A program made the translations under genes and the position numbers. From a virus, in the IMG/VR virus record IMGVR_UViG_3300024346_000440, positions 1-26,327 of that record: a DNA stretch of 26,327 nt. One strand, given 5' to 3'. A model generated the notes under the pieces. It saw only the letters and a program-made list of their open reading frames with translations, was not told the origin of the DNA and searched no databases. Positions within the stretch are counted from its first letter, which is position 1; each line of letters begins with the position of its first letter. Below are positions 1 to 9,504 of this stretch, piece after piece.

Positions 1-1724
1 AATTACATAATGAAATTGATGAAGCTTATAAAAGCGTGTATAGCAAAAAAATACTACCGTCTATGCGATCACTTCAGTTCGGAGGAAAACCGATTGAAAT
101 TAGTCCTAATCGCGTGTATAATTGCGCTTATCTACCAATTGATCACATTGATAGTTTTCACGAAACAATGTTCTTGCTACTTGGAGGAACCGGTGTTGGA
201 TACTCTGTACAAAACCATCACGTAAGTAAAATGCCACCAGTTAGTAAACCTTATGCTAAAAGAACTAGAAGGTTTTTAATTGGTGATAGTATTGAAGGTT
301 GGGCTGATGCAATTAAAGTTCTTATGAAGTCTTATATGGGTGATAAGAGAAGTTCTACTGTAGAGTTTGATTACTCAGATATAAGAGCTAAAGGCGCACA
401 GCTAGTTACGTCAGGTGGTAAAGCACCAGGACCTCAACCATTAAAAGAGTGTATACTAAAGATTAAAGGTATATTCGATGCTAAAGATGATGGTACACCG
501 TTAACAACTGTTGAGGCTCATGATATAGTTTGTCATATAGCTGACTCTGTTTTAGCTGGTGGTATTCGTAGAGCTGCTTTAATTAGTTTGTTCTCTGCTG
601 AAGATAATGAAATGATTAGTTGTAAGTCTGGTAATTGGTGGGAAACAAATCCACAAAGAGGTAGAGCTAATAACTCAGCTGTTCTTATGAGACATAAAGT
701 AACTAAAAGCTTTTTTATGGATCTATGGAAGCGTGTAGAGTTATCAGGATCAGGTGAACCTGGTATATACTTAAACAATGATAAAGACTGGGGTACAAAC
801 CCTTGTTGTGAAATAGCATTAAGACCTTTTCAGTTTTGTAACCTATGTGAAGTAAATGCTAGTGATATAGAATCACAAGATGATTTTAATGAGAGAGTTA
901 AACATGCTAGCTTCATAGGTACACTACAAGCTGGTTACACTGATTTTCATTATTTAAGAGATGTATGGAGAGATACGACAGAGAAGGACGCCCTTATCGG
1001 TGTATCAATGACAGGAATCGCGAGTGCCGCTGTGCTGCCGTTGGATATGAAGGCCGCTGCAAGTATAGTAAAAAGAGAAAACTCAAAGACAGCTAAAGCA
1101 ATTGGTATTAATCCAGCTGCAAGATGCACAACCGTGAAGCCTGCTGGGACGACATCTCTAGCGTTAGGAACTTCATCTGGTATTCATGCATGGCATAATG
1201 ATTATTATACGCGTAGAATCAGAGTTGGTAAAAACGAATCTATGTATAAGTATTTATCTACTAATCATCCTGAGTTAATTGAAGATGAGTTTTTTAGACC
1301 TCATGATACTGCTGTAATTAGTATACCACAGAAAGCACCTAAAGATTCTATATTAAGACATGAATCACCATTTGATTTACTTGAAAGAATTAAAAAGGTT
1401 GCTACAGAGTGGGTTAAGCCAGGTCATAGAAAAGGATCTAACACTCATAATGTTTCAGCCACTGTTAGTTTAAAACAAACAGAGTGGGATCAAGCAGGTG
1501 AATGGATGTGGAAAAATAGAGACCATTACAATGGTTTATCTGTGTTACCTTATGATGGTGGCACATATACTCAAGCTCCGTTTGAAGATATAAGCAAAGT
1601 ACAATACGACATGGCAATGAAGCATCTTAAAGATATTAATCTTAGTAAGATTGTTGAAACAGAAGATGAAACAGATCTTGCTGGCGAAATAGCTTGTGGC
1701 GCAGATGGCTGCGAAATAAAATGA
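1..1724 (+). CDS. nrdJ: Adenosylcobalamin-dependent ribonucleoside-triphosphate reductase (class II), 5' end cut by window edge
   Basis: The frame is open from the left edge (base 3), so the N-terminus lies outside the window and about 574 residues are visible. The enzyme reduces ribonucleotides to deoxyribonucleotides with a B12-generated cysteine radical, supplying dNTPs for phage replication. Visible signatures are YNCAYLPID with the N-terminal active-site Cys (codon 123-125), LLGGTGVGYSV, the active-site block GTNPCCEIALRPFQFCNLCEVN split by position (radical Cys codon about 804-806, partner Cys about 837-839), the KPAGTTSLALGTSSGIH block near 1138-1190, and a C-terminal redox pair CGADGC (codons 1695-1697 and 1710-1712). 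This cysteine set, without the C-terminal tyrosines of class I or the glycyl radical of class III, fits the monomeric class II enzymes. It overlaps the next gene by ATGA. Two GC-rich patches (981-1070, 1111-1180) differ from the rest of the gene. Confidence 0.93.
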   Translation, partial: LHNEIDEAYKSVYSKKILPSMRSLQFGGKPIEISPNRVYNCAYLPIDHIDSFHETMFLLLGGTGVGYSVQNHHVSKMPPVSKPYAKRTRRFLIGDSIEGWADAIKVLMKSYMGDKRSSTVEFDYSDIRAKGAQLVTSGGKAPGPQPLKECILKIKGIFDAKDDGTPLTTVEAHDIVCHIADSVLAGGIRRAALISLFSAEDNEMISCKSGNWWETNPQRGRANNSAVLMRHKVTKSFFMDLWKRVELSGSGEPGIYLNNDKDWGTNPCCEIALRPFQFCNLCEVNASDIESQDDFNERVKHASFIGTLQAGYTDFHYLRDVWRDTTEKDALIGVSMTGIASAAVLPLDMKAAASIVKRENSKTAKAIGINPAARCTTVKPAGTTSLALGTSSGIHAWHNDYYTRRIRVGKNESMYKYLSTNHPELIEDEFFRPHDTAVISIPQKAPKDSILRHESPFDLLERIKKVATEWVKPGHRKGSNTHNVSATVSLKQTEWDQAGEWMWKNRDHYNGLSVLPYDGGTYTQAPFEDISKVQYDMAMKHLKDINLSKIVETEDETDLAGEIACGADGCEIK

Positions 1725-1981
1725 TAGTATCAGCTGTTTACGGATTTGTTGCTGCAATACTGGTTCTTGCAATAACATTTATGGTAGTAATGTTAACTAG
1801 TCGGTTTGCAAAAGCCGGCTATGGCATTATGTACGGAAGCTTATTTATTAAAATGGTAACTTTATCTGCATTTACTCTAGCTGTAAAACCTTATTTAGGT
1901 GACGCTATAATATATGCATCTATTGTTTTAATAAGTATAATGTTTTCTAATGTTTATCTTATAATAAAAATAAAAAAATAA
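1721..1981 (+). CDS. Small multi-pass membrane protein of unknown function (86 aa)
   Basis: The start ATG at 1721 overlaps the reductase stop in a four-base ATGA junction, which indicates translational coupling. An in-frame GTG upstream lies inside the reductase and is less likely to be the start. The protein is almost entirely hydrophobic, with likely membrane segments at about residues 4-26, 36-57 and 62-82, and it ends in the basic tail KIKK. Size, helix count and charged C-terminus would suit a holin or a small membrane accessory protein. No diagnostic motif is visible, and a holin beside a nucleotide-metabolism gene would be an unusual place. The coding call rests on the coupling, the uninterrupted hydrophobic pattern and the lack of competing frames. 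Function unknown. Confidence 0.72.
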   Translation: MIVSAVYGFVAAILVLAITFMVVMLTSRFAKAGYGIMYGSLFIKMVTLSAFTLAVKPYLGDAIIYASIVLISIMFSNVYLIIKIKK

Positions 1982-1984
1982 AAT

Positions 1985-2104
1985 ATGGCAGAAAAATTTA
2001 AACCTCACATGATGTATAAAGGTAAAAGCGCTATAAAAGCTGATACTTATAAAAAACATCTTGAACTAAAGAAAAAAGGATATGGTCATAAAAAACCTAA
2101 ATAA
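1985..2104 (+). CDS. Short basic conserved-type hypothetical protein (39 aa)
   Basis: The ATG lies three bases after the preceding stop, in the same strand and unit. The product is lysine-, tyrosine- and histidine-rich, with the pattern MYKGKSAIKADTYKKHLELK followed by KKGYGHKKPK at the end. Small proteins ending in this kind of KKGYxHKKPK motif are, from memory, common in marine phage genomes, but no function is established. The strong positive charge would allow nucleic-acid binding, which is only an inference. Too short for most gene callers; kept because of the tight spacing, the protein-like composition and the clean TAA stop. Confidence 0.6.
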   Translation: MAEKFKPHMMYKGKSAIKADTYKKHLELKKKGYGHKKPK

Positions 2105-2114
2105 AAATTAAATT

Positions 2115-2156
2115 ATGTGTGAAAATTGTCCGGGCGGATTTTGCCCATGGTGCTAA
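2115..2156 (+). CDS. Possible 13-residue four-cysteine micropeptide
   Basis: A complete 13-codon reading frame (ATG to TAA) encodes MCENCPGGFCPWC. It starts 10 bases after the previous stop and ends five bases before the terminator stem. Four of 13 residues are cysteine, arranged as CxxC-x4-CxxC, and the second pair is CPWC, resembling glutaredoxin/thioredoxin active sites. The DNA is clearly richer in G+C than its surroundings and can also fold a short GGGC/GCCC hairpin, so it may be RNA structure and not a gene. No ribosome-binding site is visible, but none is seen for accepted genes here either. Coding status is uncertain. Confidence 0.35.
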   Translation: MCENCPGGFCPWC

Positions 2157-2160
2157 ATAT

Positions 2161-2193
2161 AAAAAGGGGAAGTCGTAATGAGATCCCCTTTTT
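2161..2193. terminator. Bidirectional rho-independent terminator between convergent units
   Basis: A ten-base perfect stem, AAAAAGGGGA (2161-2170) with TCCCCTTTTT (2184-2193), encloses a 13-base loop. It gives a GC-core hairpin followed by a run of T on both strands. It sits exactly between the plus-strand reductase unit ending at 2156 and the minus-strand late genes ending at 2239, so it can stop both. Confidence 0.9.
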
Positions 2194-2200
2194 TGGTTAC

Positions 2201-2239
2201 AGGAACTTTGGGTATGGTGCCCAGTATTTTATTGTTCCT
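2201..2239 (-). other. Imperfect hairpin overlapping the stop of the giant virion gene
   Basis: Outer arms AGGAAC (2201-2206) and GTTCCT (2234-2239) and inner arms TGGG (2209-2212) and CCCA (2220-2223) can pair with asymmetric interior loops. In the minus-strand transcript this structure forms right at the stop codon of the 2421-residue gene, just before the terminator. It may stabilise the 3' end; it could also be chance. Confidence 0.3.
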
Positions 2240-5200
2240 TATTTAAACTTTAATTTAACTTTTTTTCTTTTTGGTTTAGTTTTATTAAGTTTTTTAACTT
2301 CTTTTTTAGTATCTTTAACTGATGTTTCAAATGTTATTATTTCAACATTTCCGTTTTTAAATTCACTTTGTTCTTGCTTTTTATCCTTAGGCATTATCTG
2401 CCATTTTGGCCAACCAGCTAACATAGCTACAGACTGCCATGTTTCAGCATCTTCGTCCATTGCTCCAGAAATATTATCTACTTTGCTATACACTCTATCT
2501 AGCGGTATATTTACAGTTGCAGATATTACTTTTGCTCCAGCTTCATATGCTGGATTATCTATGCTAAATCCTTTTTCAAATATTTCTTCTCTACGTTTTT
2601 TACTATCAAACTGCCAAGCGGCTCCTCTAATTTTAGATATTTTACTACTTACAGGTGGAGATATTTGTAACAGCTTGTATATAGAATCTACATACTCAGG
2701 TCTTTTTCTTCCAGATCTTTCGTATATATCAGTTAAAAAGTTTTTAATTACAGCAACTGTAGCTCCAGCTAAACCTAAACCTCTTAATTGAGAGTCTAAC
2801 ATACCATTAGCTATCCTTAAATACTTTTTCTTTTTATCTTTTTCATAAGCTTCTAATTGCTTCTCTGTCATGTCATCTTCATCATCTCCAAATCCTAATC
2901 CAAACAGTGCAGATTGTAAAGCATTAAATATTAAATTCTGAACTACAGCATAGTATATAATCTTACTAACATTTGTTTTAGCATCTCCTCTACCATTAAC
3001 TATGTCTTGTAAAGCTCTTTTTTGTATTCTAGCATATTGCATAGGTGTATTAGCAAAAGCTAATATAACTCTTCCCAAGTCACTCGCTTGTTGAGCAGAT
3101 ATTTTACTTGGATCAGATGACTGTTGAGAAACTTCAGCTGTTTCTCTCCACTCTAACATAGCTTGCTTCTTAGCATCAGCTTCTGACATACCTTCGTTCT
3201 TTATTAAATCTTTTATTCTATTACGATAAAAAGTAGCACCACCAGCAGCTATAGCAAAGCTATCAGCAAATTGTGTAGGTAAAAATCCTTTTTGTAATAT
3301 ATAATTAATAGCAGCTTTAGCTTTGTTTTTACTAGTTGCAGCAGCATCAGCTATTTCAGATTCGTTTATGTTTAGTTTTAAACCGTTACGTCTATCAACT
3401 AAATAATCAGAATTAATTAACTCAACAAAATCTTTCCAATATTGAGGTTGATTAGCAAATGCAGCACCTGCTTTTATAGGATTATTAAAACTCCAGTTTA
3501 AAAAGTTTATAGCAGATATAGTTTGAAGAACTGCTGATCTAGTGTTGAAGAACATTATAGCACCAGTAGAATTATTTATATAATCTAAAACCCTATTGCT
3601 AAGTCTATTACCACTAAATATTCTGTTTTTACCAGACTTCATTCTACCTAGTACATTTTCCATAGCTTCTCTATACTTACTACCATAAGCTGCTTCTAGC
3701 TTATTTAAATTATCTTTGCTAAATATCAATTCAGCATTAGCAGTAAATCCAGATTGTTCTAAGTACTTAGCTCTTTTAACAGTGTTTAATACATCAATTA
3801 AATCAGTTGTTATTGTACCAACTAACCAGTTTTCACCTGGTTTAGCATAACCATCGCCTTTAGTTATACTAAATATTTGATCACCAAATGCTTTTAAAAC
3901 GCCGTCAGAATTAACTAAATCTAATAATTCTTTTAAATCTGTCTTAGATATACCAGGAACATCGTAACCAGCTTTGTTAAATAAGTAAACTCTTACAGCT
4001 TGTTCTTTAGTAAAACCTGACTCAGTTTTTTTCCTAAGATCTTTAGGAACTTCTAAAGCTTTTTTGAGAGCTTTAAAATCCTCCATTAATTGTATTCTAT
4101 CAGCTGCTATGTTTTCATTTGCCATAGCGTATGGATCAAGTAAGTTCTTTTTAAACCAAGCCATTTGGCTGTCACCTAATTTACCTTTACTTAATAATGG
4201 ATATATTAATCCCATAAAGTCTTCAGCTGAATAAGGTATAAAGAATTTTTTATTGCCCTTGTTAGCTCCTCTTACTTTTGCTTTAGCTTCTGAATATACT
4301 TTTTCCGATGCTATTCCTGTAGTTTGTTCTATTATTTTATTGAAGTCTTCATTAACAGATTTGCTAAAGTTTATTTTAGCTTGTTGAACTTTAGACTTAA
4401 CATCGAGAACAGACATAGCATCTTTAACAGCTTTTACATTTTGGTATGCATCATCTGCAAAATAAAAGTCATTATATCCTTCTGCTGCTTTATCAACCAT
4501 CCAATTAGCTTTAGCTTCACCCGTAGAGTTACCTAAACCAGTTATATTTTCTAATGGTATATTTAATCCTACACTATCTAAAAATTCTTTAATAGCTACT
4601 TGAGCTTCAGGTGCTCTAGCTGTTAAAACAAATACATCTTCCGTTCCTCTTGCTGCTTGTATTTTTTTAGCTATATCTAATAATGGACCAGGCTTACCTT
4701 TAGTGACTTTGTTAAACTCAGAAAAATCAAATACATAACCCTCTTCTAACAGTCTAGCTCCATCCATAGCAAACTTTTCAGCAGTTAAACTACCTTCAGT
4801 TCCGTCAGGTGCTGTAAATAAAACGTCTGATTTAGTAGTAGCTAATGTATCATCAAAATCAAATACTCTAATTTTTTTAACAGGAGCGTTTGGATCTCTT
4901 GCTACTTTTAAAGCTTCGTCAACTGTTTTAGCATATCCAATAATGCCTTCGTTACTAGTTGTTTTGCTAAAATTTACAACATTGTTTGATAAATTTTTTA
5001 CGTTTATATTTTTAGCTTTTGATTTTAATTTTTCTACTTCAACTGTTGTAGAGTTACCGCTGGCATCAACATTAAACATTTCACCAAACGTCTTGCCTTC
5101 TAAACCTATTATAGAGTTTGGGTCTATACCACCATCTTGGCTAGAAACTATATCGTTAAAATACCTTTGCCACCAAAAATTATCTATAACACTCCAATCG

Positions 5201-8200
5201 TCAGGCATTCTCTTTTGTAAGCTATAGCCACTTTTTGTCCTAACATTTCTAAGCTTATCATCCATAGCTTTGTCTAAAGCTATTAACTTATAATTTTTCA
5301 TAGTTAAATCATAAGCTGTTTCAAAATCACTTTTTGAAAGCGCAGCATCCATTAAATATAAATAAGCAGAAGTAGCAGGCATCGCGTGTTCATATTCATA
5401 TCTAGATCCAGTTATTTGATCTGAATAACCTTCAAATTGAGCGCCTAGCCTATGCCAAGAATTTTTATCATTAGCTACAAACTTTAAATAAGTACCTATA
5501 GATCTAGCTTTTTGCCCCGTTTTATCTTTTGCAATAGCTTCGTTAAAACGTTTCCACATTTCTTTATGTATTATAGAAACTTTTTTATTCCATTCTTTTA
5601 TTTTGCCGTTTTTCAGATTAGCTTGTATTACCTTTTTATTTTTAAATATACTAGAGTATTTATCAATAGAAAAATCCTTAATACCTTTTATTGGTTTTCC
5701 AAACGTTATAGTATCATCAAATTTTAAATCTTGAATTTTTCTTTTAATATCAGCATACGCAGCGGCTTCTTCAGGTTTTTTAAACTGTCCTTTTTTAGGT
5801 CCTTCTTTATATTTTGATCTACTTAATCCATAGCTAGCATTACTACCAGTAAAAGCGGTAGACATGTTTTCACCTTTTCTATGGTCTCCTTTACCAAACC
5901 AAAAGTCTTTAGGCATTAAAGGTAATAGTTGGGTTTTTATAGCTTCTACAAATTGATTTCTCCCCTTCTCAGTTCTTAAATTAAAAGAATCTTCTATTCC
6001 ATAAGATTTTAAAAGTTTGTTTATACCATTTGTTTCTAATTGAAATAAATTTCTTATATTTATTATTTCATCTACAGATTTACTAAAACTAAATCCTTCA
6101 GGTCGTTTTACTTTTTCAGATATTTTAGGTTTAATATCTTTAGGAACTTCTTTACCTTCTATTTCTTGTATCTCTTTAAACTTTTCAAATACTTTAGGAT
6201 CTTCTATAACCTCCATTGTGGCATCTAAAGCCATTTCATCTGCTATAGTTTCTGATAATGCAGTTTTTCTAGTGCCTTTAGTCGATGCTCCTACATCTTC
6301 ACCTAAAAAATAATTAATAAATTCTTCTTTGTTAAAAGGCTTCTTTTTAAATACACCTTTGCCAACAGCTGTTTTTTCTCTAACTTGCTTGCCTTCTTTG
6401 TCTAACACAGGCTCTGCAAAATATTGAAATCTTTTATTAATAGTTTCTTGAGGTATAGATTTATATAATGTTTCAGCATTATTAGTCACAAACATTTTAA
6501 AATCTGATCTAGTGCCCATTAGAGCATTAACTTCTTTTTTAAGTTCTCTTTTATAGCTATCGGATAAAGATTTCTTAAACTTAGGATCTGTAACTTCTGG
6601 AAGCTTTGTACCAAATGTTTTAACTACAGCATCTTTAACTTTGTTATAAAGATCAGAACCTTTTTCAATATTAAGCTTTTTTCTTAAACTTCTTGGTACT
6701 TTTTCCTCTTTAGTTTTAATTTCAACTTCTACTTTAGGAGCCGCTATATCTACTCTTTGGGATATATCCTCTTCAAACGTTTCACCTAAAACTCTTTTTG
6801 ATGCTTCAATAGCTCTAGCTGGTAAAAACTTATTTATATAAGCAGCTAATGGTACACCTGACTCTATATTATAATCTTGTATTAACTCTAATAAACCTCT
6901 TTTACCAGTTTCTATTTCGTCAGTAAGTAATTGTCTATCAAAGTTTGGAGCTTCACTTCTACGTTGTACTATTTTGTTTACAATAGGTTTAAACTCTTCA
7001 ATAATATCTAATGCGCCTGCAACGCCTTGCTCTTCATATATTTTTTGAACATTTTCAGATGCTGTCTTAGACATTGAAATCTCTTGTTTAACAGGTGCAA
7101 CTTCTGCTAATTTTAAAGCTCTAGCACTTATTAACCCTTTTTCAGCAGTTTTATTATAGTCTTTTAAAAAGTTATAAGCTTGCCTTGCATTACTAAAATC
7201 TTTAACTATACCAATTTTTCTAAATATTTCTTGTAATAAATTTTTAAGTTTATTACCAAAGCTTTCATTAAACGCAACTTCCTTCTTTGCTATTGCATCT
7301 GATAATACTGTAAATATCTCAACAGAAGTTTCAGCATCAAAATTAGGGTCTGATTTATAAGCTTTAAATCTATCATTTATAGCTTGATTCTGCTCGTCGC
7401 TTAGTATATTTCTAAAGTCGGATATAAGCTTTTTCTTTTGGTTAGTATTTAAATCATTAAAAGCATTATTAATAACACCATGTAATACTTCGTGTTGGCC
7501 AGTATTAAATGCGCCAGTCTTACCTACTACATCTTTATTTATTACTATAGCGTCACCTAAATAAAATCCATCAGCACTTGATACGTCTTGACTACTTTGA
7601 TCTGGGTTTTCTTTTAAAAACTCATCGTATATTTTTTGAGCTTTATCACCGGCTGATCCTTCACTATCAGTTTCTACTACATATACTTTTTTACCAAGTT
7701 TTTCACCTTGTGTTTCTGCGAACTTAACAGTTTTGTTTATTCTTAAGTCTTTTATTTCTTTTGCAATAGATACTTGCTCTTCAGCTAGTTTTATTTCAGC
7801 TTCACTAGCGCTTGTTTTAGATATTAAATTATCAATTTCTTGTATTCTTTCTTTAGACTTTTTAACAGACTCTTGATTAGGATCAAGTCCCTCTATTTTT
7901 TGTTTTAAATTAGTTTTTTCGTAAATTAAATTAGCTATTTCTTCTTGTTTTTCTTCTAATAATTCAGAGTCAGTTTGTTTAACTGCTTGTTGAAAATCTT
8001 CTACTTTTCTTATAAGCTCGTCCCCTTGTTTTTTAGAAATATTTCCTAACTCTTGTTCTTTTCTTATTTCAGATATAGCTCCTTGTTTAACTTTATTATT
8101 TCTTAATAAAACCTTGCCTGTAGCTCCTAAACTTTGAACAGTACCTCCCATAAAGCTACCTAAAGCAAAAGCTTCAAAAGCATTGCTCATGTAGTCTTCA

Positions 8201-9504
8201 AGTGTTAAGTCTTGAACTCCATAAAAGTCATCTGTTAAATCTTGACCAAGCGAAGTTAAAGCTTCTGTAGTTCCTTCTAAAGCTGTATTTATTCCAAAAG
8301 CTTTAAATATTTCTTTAGCTGTCTTATCACCTAATTCTTTTGATATTTTTTGAGCAGCTTCTTTACCTGCTATATTAAAAGTTTTTCTTACTTGGCTTCT
8401 AATTCCTGATTTAAAAACTTGAAAAGATTTAGCACCAACCGGACCCATGATTCCTTCAAAAAATCCTTCTGCTCCACCTCTTAGAAAAGCTCTACCAAGC
8501 TTGTCTCCTCTAGTAAGCTCTTTTAACTTAGGATCATCTGAAAATCTAGATTCTTCATACTCGTCAGGAATTAAAATACCTGACATCATACCAGAACTTC
8601 CTAAAGCTTGTTTTATTAAAAGTTGTGTTGTTGGTATAGATTTACCTCTTGTAGCTACAGCTGGAAGTGAAGATAAAACCATTAATGGCAAGCTTTCAGC
8701 TGTTGTTCTAAAACCTAAATTAGCCGCATCTGCAAAGTTTCCATTTTTTATACTATTAACAAACCCGTCTTTATACTCTCTTTGAGATTCTCTTAGTTTG
8801 TTTCTTTTTTCAATATTAGATTTAGACATTAAATCTCTATAAGCTCTATAAGCTAATTGAACATTTCCAGGTTTGTAACCTGTAGTTTCTAGTATAACAT
8901 CTTCTACGTAGTTTAACCCAGCATTTTTAAAGTTTTCTATAGCTATACTGCCTGCTTGTAAACTTTCCCAAAGATCAACTAATCTACTTCCAGATTCTTT
9001 TTGCTTTTTTGCTAAAGATTTTAATTTATCATCTCCTTCTGGTATGTCTAATTTAATTTTTTCATCTTGAAGGTCATTTATAAAGTCATTGTCAAAAAGT
9101 TTATTTTTTAAAATTTCTCTATCAACTTCTTTTCCGTCTATGTAATACTTACCAGGAACTTCATCTATATTATATTTAGCTTTTCTAGCTTCTTCTTCTT
9201 TTTTTTGTTCTAAAGCAAAGTCTCCAGTAGTGAACATATCTCTTGATTCAAACAAATCCTCTTGACTAATTTCAGCATCGTCTTTACTTGGCAAAGTTTT
9301 TTCAACTTCTTCAAACTTAAACTCTGGAAATTTAGAATTTGCAACCTCATAGTTGTAGTCTTCTTTTTCTACTGTAGCTGTGTAATCTTTTAAAAGCTGA
9401 GGATCGTACTCAGATAACTCTGGAAATTTATCTAAAACAACATCCCAATTATAATTATCTTGTTGAGCTGTTGCTACTAAATCTTTTAATAATTGTTCAT
9501 TCAT
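2239..9504 (-). CDS. Giant multidomain virion protein (2421 aa) with zincin-like and HAD phosphatase-like domains
   Basis: Likely a large polyvalent-type protein packed in the virion and delivered with DNA. Residues 1-62 hold two copies of a roughly 30-residue repeat (QLLKDxxATxxxxxYNxxVxxxKFPE). Residues about 150-470 are helical with small hydrophobic patches, and 475-590 look like coiled coil. HEVLH at 671-675, after a FYLGDAIVIN strand, is the zinc-binding HExxH of a zincin metallopeptidase, with a possible third ligand in SVEIFTVLSDAI near 729. A complete HAD set follows: DFDDT (1549-1553), VLTAR (1626-1630), Lys1665 and FADD (1682-1685). Other recognisable blocks are KFLPARAIEASKRVLG near 892-907 and YEHAMPAT near 1371-1378. 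The C-terminus has a hydrophobic stretch at about 2240-2258 and a Lys-rich tail. Its ATG overlaps the upstream stop by one base (TAATG). It is the last gene of the late unit. The activities are inferred from motifs only. Confidence 0.85.
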   Translation of the reverse strand: MNEQLLKDLVATAQQDNYNWDVVLDKFPELSEYDPQLLKDYTATVEKEDYNYEVANSKFPEFKFEEVEKTLPSKDDAEISQEDLFESRDMFTTGDFALEQKKEEEARKAKYNIDEVPGKYYIDGKEVDREILKNKLFDNDFINDLQDEKIKLDIPEGDDKLKSLAKKQKESGSRLVDLWESLQAGSIAIENFKNAGLNYVEDVILETTGYKPGNVQLAYRAYRDLMSKSNIEKRNKLRESQREYKDGFVNSIKNGNFADAANLGFRTTAESLPLMVLSSLPAVATRGKSIPTTQLLIKQALGSSGMMSGILIPDEYEESRFSDDPKLKELTRGDKLGRAFLRGGAEGFFEGIMGPVGAKSFQVFKSGIRSQVRKTFNIAGKEAAQKISKELGDKTAKEIFKAFGINTALEGTTEALTSLGQDLTDDFYGVQDLTLEDYMSNAFEAFALGSFMGGTVQSLGATGKVLLRNNKVKQGAISEIRKEQELGNISKKQGDELIRKVEDFQQAVKQTDSELLEEKQEEIANLIYEKTNLKQKIEGLDPNQESVKKSKERIQEIDNLISKTSASEAEIKLAEEQVSIAKEIKDLRINKTVKFAETQGEKLGKKVYVVETDSEGSAGDKAQKIYDEFLKENPDQSSQDVSSADGFYLGDAIVINKDVVGKTGAFNTGQHEVLHGVINNAFNDLNTNQKKKLISDFRNILSDEQNQAINDRFKAYKSDPNFDAETSVEIFTVLSDAIAKKEVAFNESFGNKLKNLLQEIFRKIGIVKDFSNARQAYNFLKDYNKTAEKGLISARALKLAEVAPVKQEISMSKTASENVQKIYEEQGVAGALDIIEEFKPIVNKIVQRRSEAPNFDRQLLTDEIETGKRGLLELIQDYNIESGVPLAAYINKFLPARAIEASKRVLGETFEEDISQRVDIAAPKVEVEIKTKEEKVPRSLRKKLNIEKGSDLYNKVKDAVVKTFGTKLPEVTDPKFKKSLSDSYKRELKKEVNALMGTRSDFKMFVTNNAETLYKSIPQETINKRFQYFAEPVLDKEGKQVREKTAVGKGVFKKKPFNKEEFINYFLGEDVGASTKGTRKTALSETIADEMALDATMEVIEDPKVFEKFKEIQEIEGKEVPKDIKPKISEKVKRPEGFSFSKSVDEIINIRNLFQLETNGINKLLKSYGIEDSFNLRTEKGRNQFVEAIKTQLLPLMPKDFWFGKGDHRKGENMSTAFTGSNASYGLSRSKYKEGPKKGQFKKPEEAAAYADIKRKIQDLKFDDTITFGKPIKGIKDFSIDKYSSIFKNKKVIQANLKNGKIKEWNKKVSIIHKEMWKRFNEAIAKDKTGQKARSIGTYLKFVANDKNSWHRLGAQFEGYSDQITGSRYEYEHAMPATSAYLYLMDAALSKSDFETAYDLTMKNYKLIALDKAMDDKLRNVRTKSGYSLQKRMPDDWSVIDNFWWQRYFNDIVSSQDGGIDPNSIIGLEGKTFGEMFNVDASGNSTTVEVEKLKSKAKNINVKNLSNNVVNFSKTTSNEGIIGYAKTVDEALKVARDPNAPVKKIRVFDFDDTLATTKSDVLFTAPDGTEGSLTAEKFAMDGARLLEEGYVFDFSEFNKVTKGKPGPLLDIAKKIQAARGTEDVFVLTARAPEAQVAIKEFLDSVGLNIPLENITGLGNSTGEAKANWMVDKAAEGYNDFYFADDAYQNVKAVKDAMSVLDVKSKVQQAKINFSKSVNEDFNKIIEQTTGIASEKVYSEAKAKVRGANKGNKKFFIPYSAEDFMGLIYPLLSKGKLGDSQMAWFKKNLLDPYAMANENIAADRIQLMEDFKALKKALEVPKDLRKKTESGFTKEQAVRVYLFNKAGYDVPGISKTDLKELLDLVNSDGVLKAFGDQIFSITKGDGYAKPGENWLVGTITTDLIDVLNTVKRAKYLEQSGFTANAELIFSKDNLNKLEAAYGSKYREAMENVLGRMKSGKNRIFSGNRLSNRVLDYINNSTGAIMFFNTRSAVLQTISAINFLNWSFNNPIKAGAAFANQPQYWKDFVELINSDYLVDRRNGLKLNINESEIADAAATSKNKAKAAINYILQKGFLPTQFADSFAIAAGGATFYRNRIKDLIKNEGMSEADAKKQAMLEWRETAEVSQQSSDPSKISAQQASDLGRVILAFANTPMQYARIQKRALQDIVNGRGDAKTNVSKIIYYAVVQNLIFNALQSALFGLGFGDDEDDMTEKQLEAYEKDKKKKYLRIANGMLDSQLRGLGLAGATVAVIKNFLTDIYERSGRKRPEYVDSIYKLLQISPPVSSKISKIRGAAWQFDSKKRREEIFEKGFSIDNPAYEAGAKVISATVNIPLDRVYSKVDNISGAMDEDAETWQSVAMLAGWPKWQIMPKDKKQEQSEFKNGNVEIITFETSVKDTKKEVKKLNKTKPKRKKVKLKFK

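Follow-up and report, generated by a model that had tools for sequence, protein, structure and literature searches.

A selected 13-residue peptide gene with two CxxC pairs in marine flavophages, and equivalent peptides in unrelated phages

Introduction

Phage small proteins (<100 aa) are short, conserved and unannotated genes, as reviewed in PMC11323111, and a catalogue of microbial small ORFs reaches down to 30 nt, with taxonomy that, according to PMC11364881, was assigned without phages. The family described here shares these traits but differs in comprising micropeptides of only 11–16 aa. A gene of 13 codons is much shorter than those that phage annotation normally includes, and such peptides are therefore easily missed.

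Thioredoxin, glutaredoxin and NrdH resemble the micropeptide in having a CPWC-like dithiol and, in flavophages, in the neighborhood of a ribonucleotide reductase (RNR). However, thioredoxins and glutaredoxins build a fold of roughly 80–110 residues around the CxxC, whereas the 13-codon ORF has no redoxin fold, carries two CxxC pairs with a variable dipeptide and has relatives without an RNR. Metallothioneins share its high content of Cys (4 of 13 residues) and Gly, and the conserved CxxC spacing expected of a metallothionein-like peptide is found, with four Cys in 11–16 residues throughout subtypes A–F and few exceptions; yet the micropeptide has one Cys4 site at most and about half the length of even short metallothioneins. 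Ambidoxin and other metallopeptides under 20 aa indicate that chemistry allows a minimal metal site to be built from about 12 residues (PMC13348028). Ambidoxin is a designed, synthetic 12-residue 4Fe-4S peptide containing D-amino acids, as described in the same source, whereas the micropeptide is gene-encoded and its metal site putative.

Results

The micro-ORF and its operon

Within the window, that is, the whole stretch of phage DNA analyzed here (26,327 bases), the micro-ORF is the only ORF of 8–20 aa with two CxxC motifs on either strand, and none of 100 windows simulated with an order-1 Markov model contained such an ORF, which rules out a chance occurrence. The earlier note had reported a two-CxxC ORF of 13 residues behind a class II RNR. 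The ORF is present, as read directly from the sequence, and it does belong to the RNR operon, but the two genes are not adjacent, ORFs of 86 and 39 aa lying between them (Table 1).

Table 1. Features of the window and peptide subtypes of the flavophages
Feature	Positions	Strand	Description
Class II (B12-dependent) RNR fragment	3..1724	+	5' end cut by window; C-terminal Cys pair CGADGCEIK
86-aa hydrophobic small protein	1721..1981	+	RNR operon
39-aa Lys-rich basic small protein	1985..2104	+	directly upstream of micro-ORF
A/T-rich leader without Shine-Dalgarno	2090..2114	+	fits flavobacterial translation starts
Micro-ORF	2115..2156	+	13 codons, ATGTGTGAAAATTGTCCGGGCGGATTTTGCCCATGGTGCTAA, encoding MCENCPGGFCPWC and a stop; own start and stop; two CxxC pairs, C-x2-C-x4-C-x2-C
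Terminator-like hairpin	2161..2194		AAAAAGGGG...CCCCTTTTTT; between RNR operon and convergent late operon; fold, alignment of 16 homologues
Conserved element	2195..2240		GGTTACAGGAACTTTGGGTATGGTGCCCAG...GTTCCT; 46 nt; separate from micro-ORF
Convergent 2421-aa gene	2239..9504	-	stop abuts conserved element
Subtype A			flavophage; MC(E/D)xCxGG(F/I)CPWC
Subtype B			flavophage; MC(G/P)LCLGG(I/T)CEYC..
Subtype C			flavophage; MC(P/E)(Y/F/I)C(N/D)(G/S)YCxxC
Subtype D			flavophage; MCELCxG(L/F)CxGC

The RNR fragment scores above the Pfam cut-offs for PF21995 (28.4 versus 27 bits) and PF02867 (28 versus 23.9 bits) and, in tblastn, matches phage RNRs. Its nearest relative (65%), a protein of Microcystis phage Mel-JY01, has no annotation; Vibrio and Oceanospirillum phages encode homologues that carry the label "recombinase", which is probably a misannotation. 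Neither PHROGs nor Pfam matched the 86-aa ORF, and PHROGs gave no match for the 39-aa ORF. Positions 1721–2104 and the homologous stretches of relatives, from RNR to terminator, form a cargo slot whose contents, namely tRNA-like genes, small genes for hydrophobic or basic proteins and the micro-ORF subtypes, are exchanged.

The capsid protein of the window is 41–48% identical to proteins of Flavobacterium and Maribacter phages and of one spring-water phage, and two contigs of a single Flavobacteriaceae MAG likewise contain the element downstream of the micro-ORF. No Shine-Dalgarno sequence precedes the micro-ORF or any of 14 further starts inspected in the window. Among 69 distinct leader-plus-ORF sequences of the group, A occupies positions -10 to -12 in 64–67 and a purine position -3 in 67, in agreement with the start rules measured in Flavobacterium johnsoniae, as given in PMC6847099.

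Downstream of the micro-ORF lie a terminator-like hairpin and a conserved element, neither of which the earlier note mentioned; the hairpin is absent from the output of a consensus scan. The first 30 bases of the element are nearly invariant in 132 sites, and it is single-copy in all 12 records examined, with an operon converging on it from either side in this phage group. A nested hairpin could form in it, with little variation at the paired positions (none of 17 pairs shows compensatory change among 16 sequences). Sense ORFs of at least 60 aa start within 300 nt at 30 of 121 sites and, in most of the 20 shown, the start is an ATG inside the element, over the convergent gene.

Conservation in related marine flavophages

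The exact peptide MCENCPGGFCPWC is encoded in 8 other IMG/VR contigs, with synonymous differences. A broader set of sites was anchored on the downstream element, the ORF itself not being used, and comprised 100 contigs plus 29 obtained by a variant with one extra T; with the two MAG contigs and the window, this amounts to the 132 element sites. Fetching was thus free of any choice of Cys, yet micro-ORFs were recognized by at least three Cys in the motif. The RNR C-terminus was located within 3.5 kb upstream at 100 of the 132 sites, and a double-CxxC micro-ORF lies between RNR and element at 72 of these 100, many contigs being near-identical, so that the counts are not independent events. The remaining 28 sites hold no decayed copy (best ungapped identity 0.60 or less), from which it follows that the micro-ORF is dispensable or replaceable.

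The distance from the RNR stop to the micro-ORF ranges from 8 to 884 nt, and in 14 of the 72 cases it is 8–18 nt, with the RNR itself as upstream neighbor. On the other side, a tRNA-like gene (assigned by eye) separates the micro-ORF from the hairpin in more than 10 loci, and at one locus, L106, the micro-ORF has its own terminator and stays with the RNR, 1.4 kb from the element. The micro-ORF is therefore separable from hairpin and element, and we rule out that it forms part of the latter, against which it also counts that 51 of 101 elements have no Cys-rich ORF within 130 nt.

Evidence of selection on the frame

Flavophage peptides fall into subtypes A–D, with examples such as CENCPGGFCPWC, CGLCLGGICEYC, CPYCNGYCGSC and CELCEGLCQGC. 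One-base changes were counted on minimum spanning trees of distinct sequences, codons with several changes, mostly non-synonymous, being kept apart. Pooled over all lineages, 93 changes are synonymous and 26 non-synonymous, where about 24–28% synonymous changes are expected (p about 1e-29). Subtypes A–D, all of them element-linked, contribute 55 versus 23 changes (A 12/5, B 27/7, C 9/10, D 7/1), and their Cys codons 27 versus 2. Subtype C alone is the weakest, its small synonymous excess reaching p about 0.01. The wider lineages E and F give 7/1 and 31/2, from sequences collected with Cys-fixing patterns, one of which also fixed Glu and Tyr. Over all lineages, Cys codons changed synonymously 42 times and otherwise only twice, in one loss (Cys to Tyr in L095) and one gain.

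This purifying selection on the frame is what a translated phage small-protein gene would display, and frame and both CxxC pairs persist although codons and even most residues change. Moreover, the same upstream gene end, that of one membrane gene, precedes subtype A 13 times, B 8 times and C 6 times, as if function-equivalent cassettes were exchanged behind it. Judged by these patterns of change, the micro-ORF is a real, selected phage gene for a 13-residue peptide, and its translation is strongly supported by the codon changes. The check that the earlier note had proposed thus speaks for a peptide gene, since synonymously altered copies of the micro-ORF recur downstream of the reductases of related phages.

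Equivalent peptides in unrelated phages

A Shine-Dalgarno-anchored pattern that fixed Met and four Cys and nothing else returned 106 matches, of which 23 are shorter than 20 aa; each of these reads MCE(Y/C)C-xxx-C-x-(G/D)-C, and they form the groups MCEYCGGGCGGC, MCEYCKGEC(P/L)GC and MCEYCG(M/T)GCG(D/G)CRG. When MCEYC and two more Cys were fixed in a second pattern, 43 matches were obtained, 42 of which are 12–14 aa long with the stop directly behind; this pattern added the group MCEYCGG(S/N/D)CGGCRG, and 4 of the 42 are flavophage sequences (MCEYCNGYCG(G/S)C). The other 38, together with L154, make up 39 non-flavophage contigs with a peptide of the MCEYCxxxCxGC kind; in tblastn against the loci of these contigs, neither the RNR of the flavophages nor their capsid, portal or 39-aa proteins found a match. 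Few or no ORFs are common to these lineages or shared with flavophages among 16 representative contigs compared. In 15 of 15 records of the wider family, most of them fragments, searches with PF02867 and the window RNR found nothing, two flavophage records being matched as positive controls in the protein search. A partnership with the reductase, suggested earlier from the position of the micro-ORF, thus lacks support as a general rule.

At the loci inspected, starts in the wider family have AGGAGG 4–8 nt upstream or are coupled by an overlapping TAATG to the gene before or behind. At chosen loci, the neighbors of which were labeled by eye, the peptide gene follows a tail-fiber-like ORF or a Cys-rich ORF of 62 aa, or it belongs to a cluster of genes for small Lys-rich proteins close to an ORF that resembles a terminase small subunit. 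In the marine phages L254 (9300–10161), L259 and L265, the clusters near such an ORF, again labeled by eye, comprise numerous tiny Lys-rich proteins, belonging to phrog_14910, to DUF6321 or to no assigned family.

By this comparison, there is a family of 11–16-residue peptides in several unrelated phages, nearly always with four Cys in two CxxC pairs, of the formula M-C-x2-C-x(3,4)-C-x2-C and at most a couple of extra residues. Since several of the collection searches fixed Cys codons, the invariance of Cys is there partly due to selection of the sequences. Deviating variants are few: MCPYCNGYCGSY, and the shortened MCPFCNGYCSC and MCPLCLGVCLCKD, which keep the number or the pairs only in part. 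The dipeptide inside the CxxC varies widely (EN, DG, PW, EY, PY, GS, GL, EL and QG).

A phage family of about 50 aa (L242, L246, L207, L210, L211 and L186) has the N-terminus MC(E/T/N)(V/I)C-x-(G)G-C-x2-C and the motif LQFAS(G/M)KEIEEFYD; it directly follows a Cys-rich gene, zinc-ribbon-like by eye, and is unannotated in two INPHARED records of one phage. It is like the micropeptide in its N-terminal double-CxxC head, led by a Shine-Dalgarno sequence, and unlike it in its conserved tail, which suggests that such heads, fixed here by the search pattern, also occur as parts of larger proteins. A scan covering these longer relatives, as distinct from the 13-residue peptides, whose length is insufficient for such a comparison, found no Pfam or NCBIfam match and only weak PHROGs.

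Hosts, cultured phages and literature

A host gene was rejected as the source, as a loose pattern matched 5 of 397 genomes of the family and 3 of 395 of the phylum of the Flavobacteriaceae MAG, versus 3 of 397 and 5 of 395 for a reversed control; the sole match among these genomes that resembles the peptide family is the phage contig of the center genome itself. No such ORF occurs in the stretches examined of Maribacter phage Panino, of MW202828 and of the HTVC, CRP, MEP and EXVC phages, which are relatives of the wider lineages; in blastn against INPHARED, micro-ORF regions matched only weakly (E 0.9 or worse). With no cultured carrier found, function cannot be read from annotation. Literature searches for the MCEYC string, double-CxxC phage sORFs, phage metallothionein and minimal zinc CxxC peptides returned no description, and the family apparently is undescribed so far, the phage smORF families of Fremin 2022 lying outside the comparison.

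Discussion

The feature that most favors a metal-binding micropeptide is that four Cys are kept in nearly all variants while their spacing (x3 or x4), the inner residues and the tails vary. Retention of four Cys with free variation inside the CxxC would be more easily reconciled with a Cys4 metal site than with one redox dithiol. The four Cys may form two CxxC knuckles, which is the layout of a minimal Cys4 metal site, and a Gly or Ser usually stands two residues after the second Cys, a position that suits the tight turn of a knuckle, as in zinc knuckles. We regard a free-standing Cys4 micropeptide that binds metal, probably zinc, as the best explanation and give it an even chance, a redoxin, a Cys-codon attenuator and an RNA structure being less likely. 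Such a peptide would bind one metal ion, zinc in the first place and iron in the second, and would act during infection as a free-standing metal knuckle or a metal/thiol buffer, alone or docked to a partner; in flavophages, it would be made from the end of the RNR operon via A-rich flavobacterial starts. It counts against this reading that a partnerless 13-mer can hardly fold before the metal is bound and may be degraded quickly. From the comparative data, then, we infer a stable product, metal binding and a biological role.

An alternative that we consider unlikely is a dedicated miniature redoxin, the CxxC pairs of which would serve as reductants for the C-terminal disulfide in the class II RNR that the phage encodes, in place of an absent glutaredoxin or thioredoxin. 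CPWC resembles redoxin sites and speaks for it, as do the place of the flavophage gene within the RNR operon, directly behind the RNR stop in the 14 cases given above, and the L106 micro-ORF, which stays with the RNR at a distance from the element. Besides, none of 25 flavophage records has a glutaredoxin or thioredoxin match, and neither protein is found elsewhere in the window record. However, the 25 records comprise 18 with and 7 without the micro-ORF, and those 7 belong to the same group and have the RNR, so that the missing phage redoxin does not track the micro-ORF. The freely varying CxxC dipeptide and the equivalent peptides in phages without an RNR (15 of 15 records, which may be fragments) also stand against a redoxin, as does the finding that host thioredoxin is enough to serve a phage class II RNR in vitro, according to PMC6459318. 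Given that no RNR turned up in these relatives, the simplest account of the link is that one phage group has both genes in a common operon; a partnership would be lineage-specific, and the peptide may still have a role with the RNR in flavophages.

Somewhat more doubtful is a docking knuckle, in which the metal-bound peptide would be a cofactor for adjoining small Lys-rich proteins, for instance in DNA packaging. Small Lys-rich genes do adjoin it in several lineages (1985–2104 in the window, L254, L259, L265 and L126), but small basic proteins are common in these phages, and the upstream neighbor in 14 of 72 flavophage cases is the RNR.

It is very improbable that the ORF is a leader peptide, the clustered Cys codons of which would sense Cys-tRNA and control the terminator-like hairpin. 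Four Cys codons do lie a few nucleotides before that hairpin, and polycysteine attenuators exist in mycobacteria (Canestrari 2020, as cited in PMC13236596). What disfavors attenuation is that the window has no same-strand operon directly behind the terminator: the convergent 2421-aa gene abuts the element and leaves no target on the + strand, and at 92 of 121 sites a convergent ORF of at least 100 aa ends within 150 nt of the element. Further, tRNA-like genes intervene between micro-ORF and hairpin, the L106 micro-ORF has its own terminator, the hairpin is missing after the micro-ORF in several other lineages, and the residues between the Cys are conserved lineage by lineage, which codon counting would not need.

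An RNA structure, be it the GGGC/GCCC hairpin or part of the terminator or element, with an incidental ORF can be practically dismissed. The stem noted earlier over the same bases is there as sequence, adjoins structured RNA and is intact in all 15 distinct type-A ORFs, but it is conserved in that subtype alone: the 24 type-B ORFs have the same codon spacing, yet each of them allows only 2 of the 4 pairs. Moreover, the folding energies of the ORFs resemble those of shuffled sequences (mean z -0.28 to -0.50 across four groups), the synonymous bias is frame-specific, and neither the micro-ORF region nor the element matches an Rfam family.

The comparison of sequences alone thus reveals a 13-codon peptide under strong selection in several phage groups, kept independently of hairpin and RNR. 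More tentatively, and with rather more doubt than confidence, we propose that phages carry gene-encoded, free-standing Cys4 metallopeptides of 11–16 residues, among the smallest natural metalloproteins, which would be exchanged among unrelated phages and used in infection, possibly for metal hijack, for metal delivery to phage enzymes or as a knuckle for partner proteins. A cheap test is at hand, as the peptides MCENCPGGFCPWC and MCEYCGGSCGGCRG can be made synthetically and titrated. If they bind metal, they would push down the size limit for a natural gene-encoded metalloprotein and offer a biological counterpart to the designed minimal iron-sulfur and zinc peptides.
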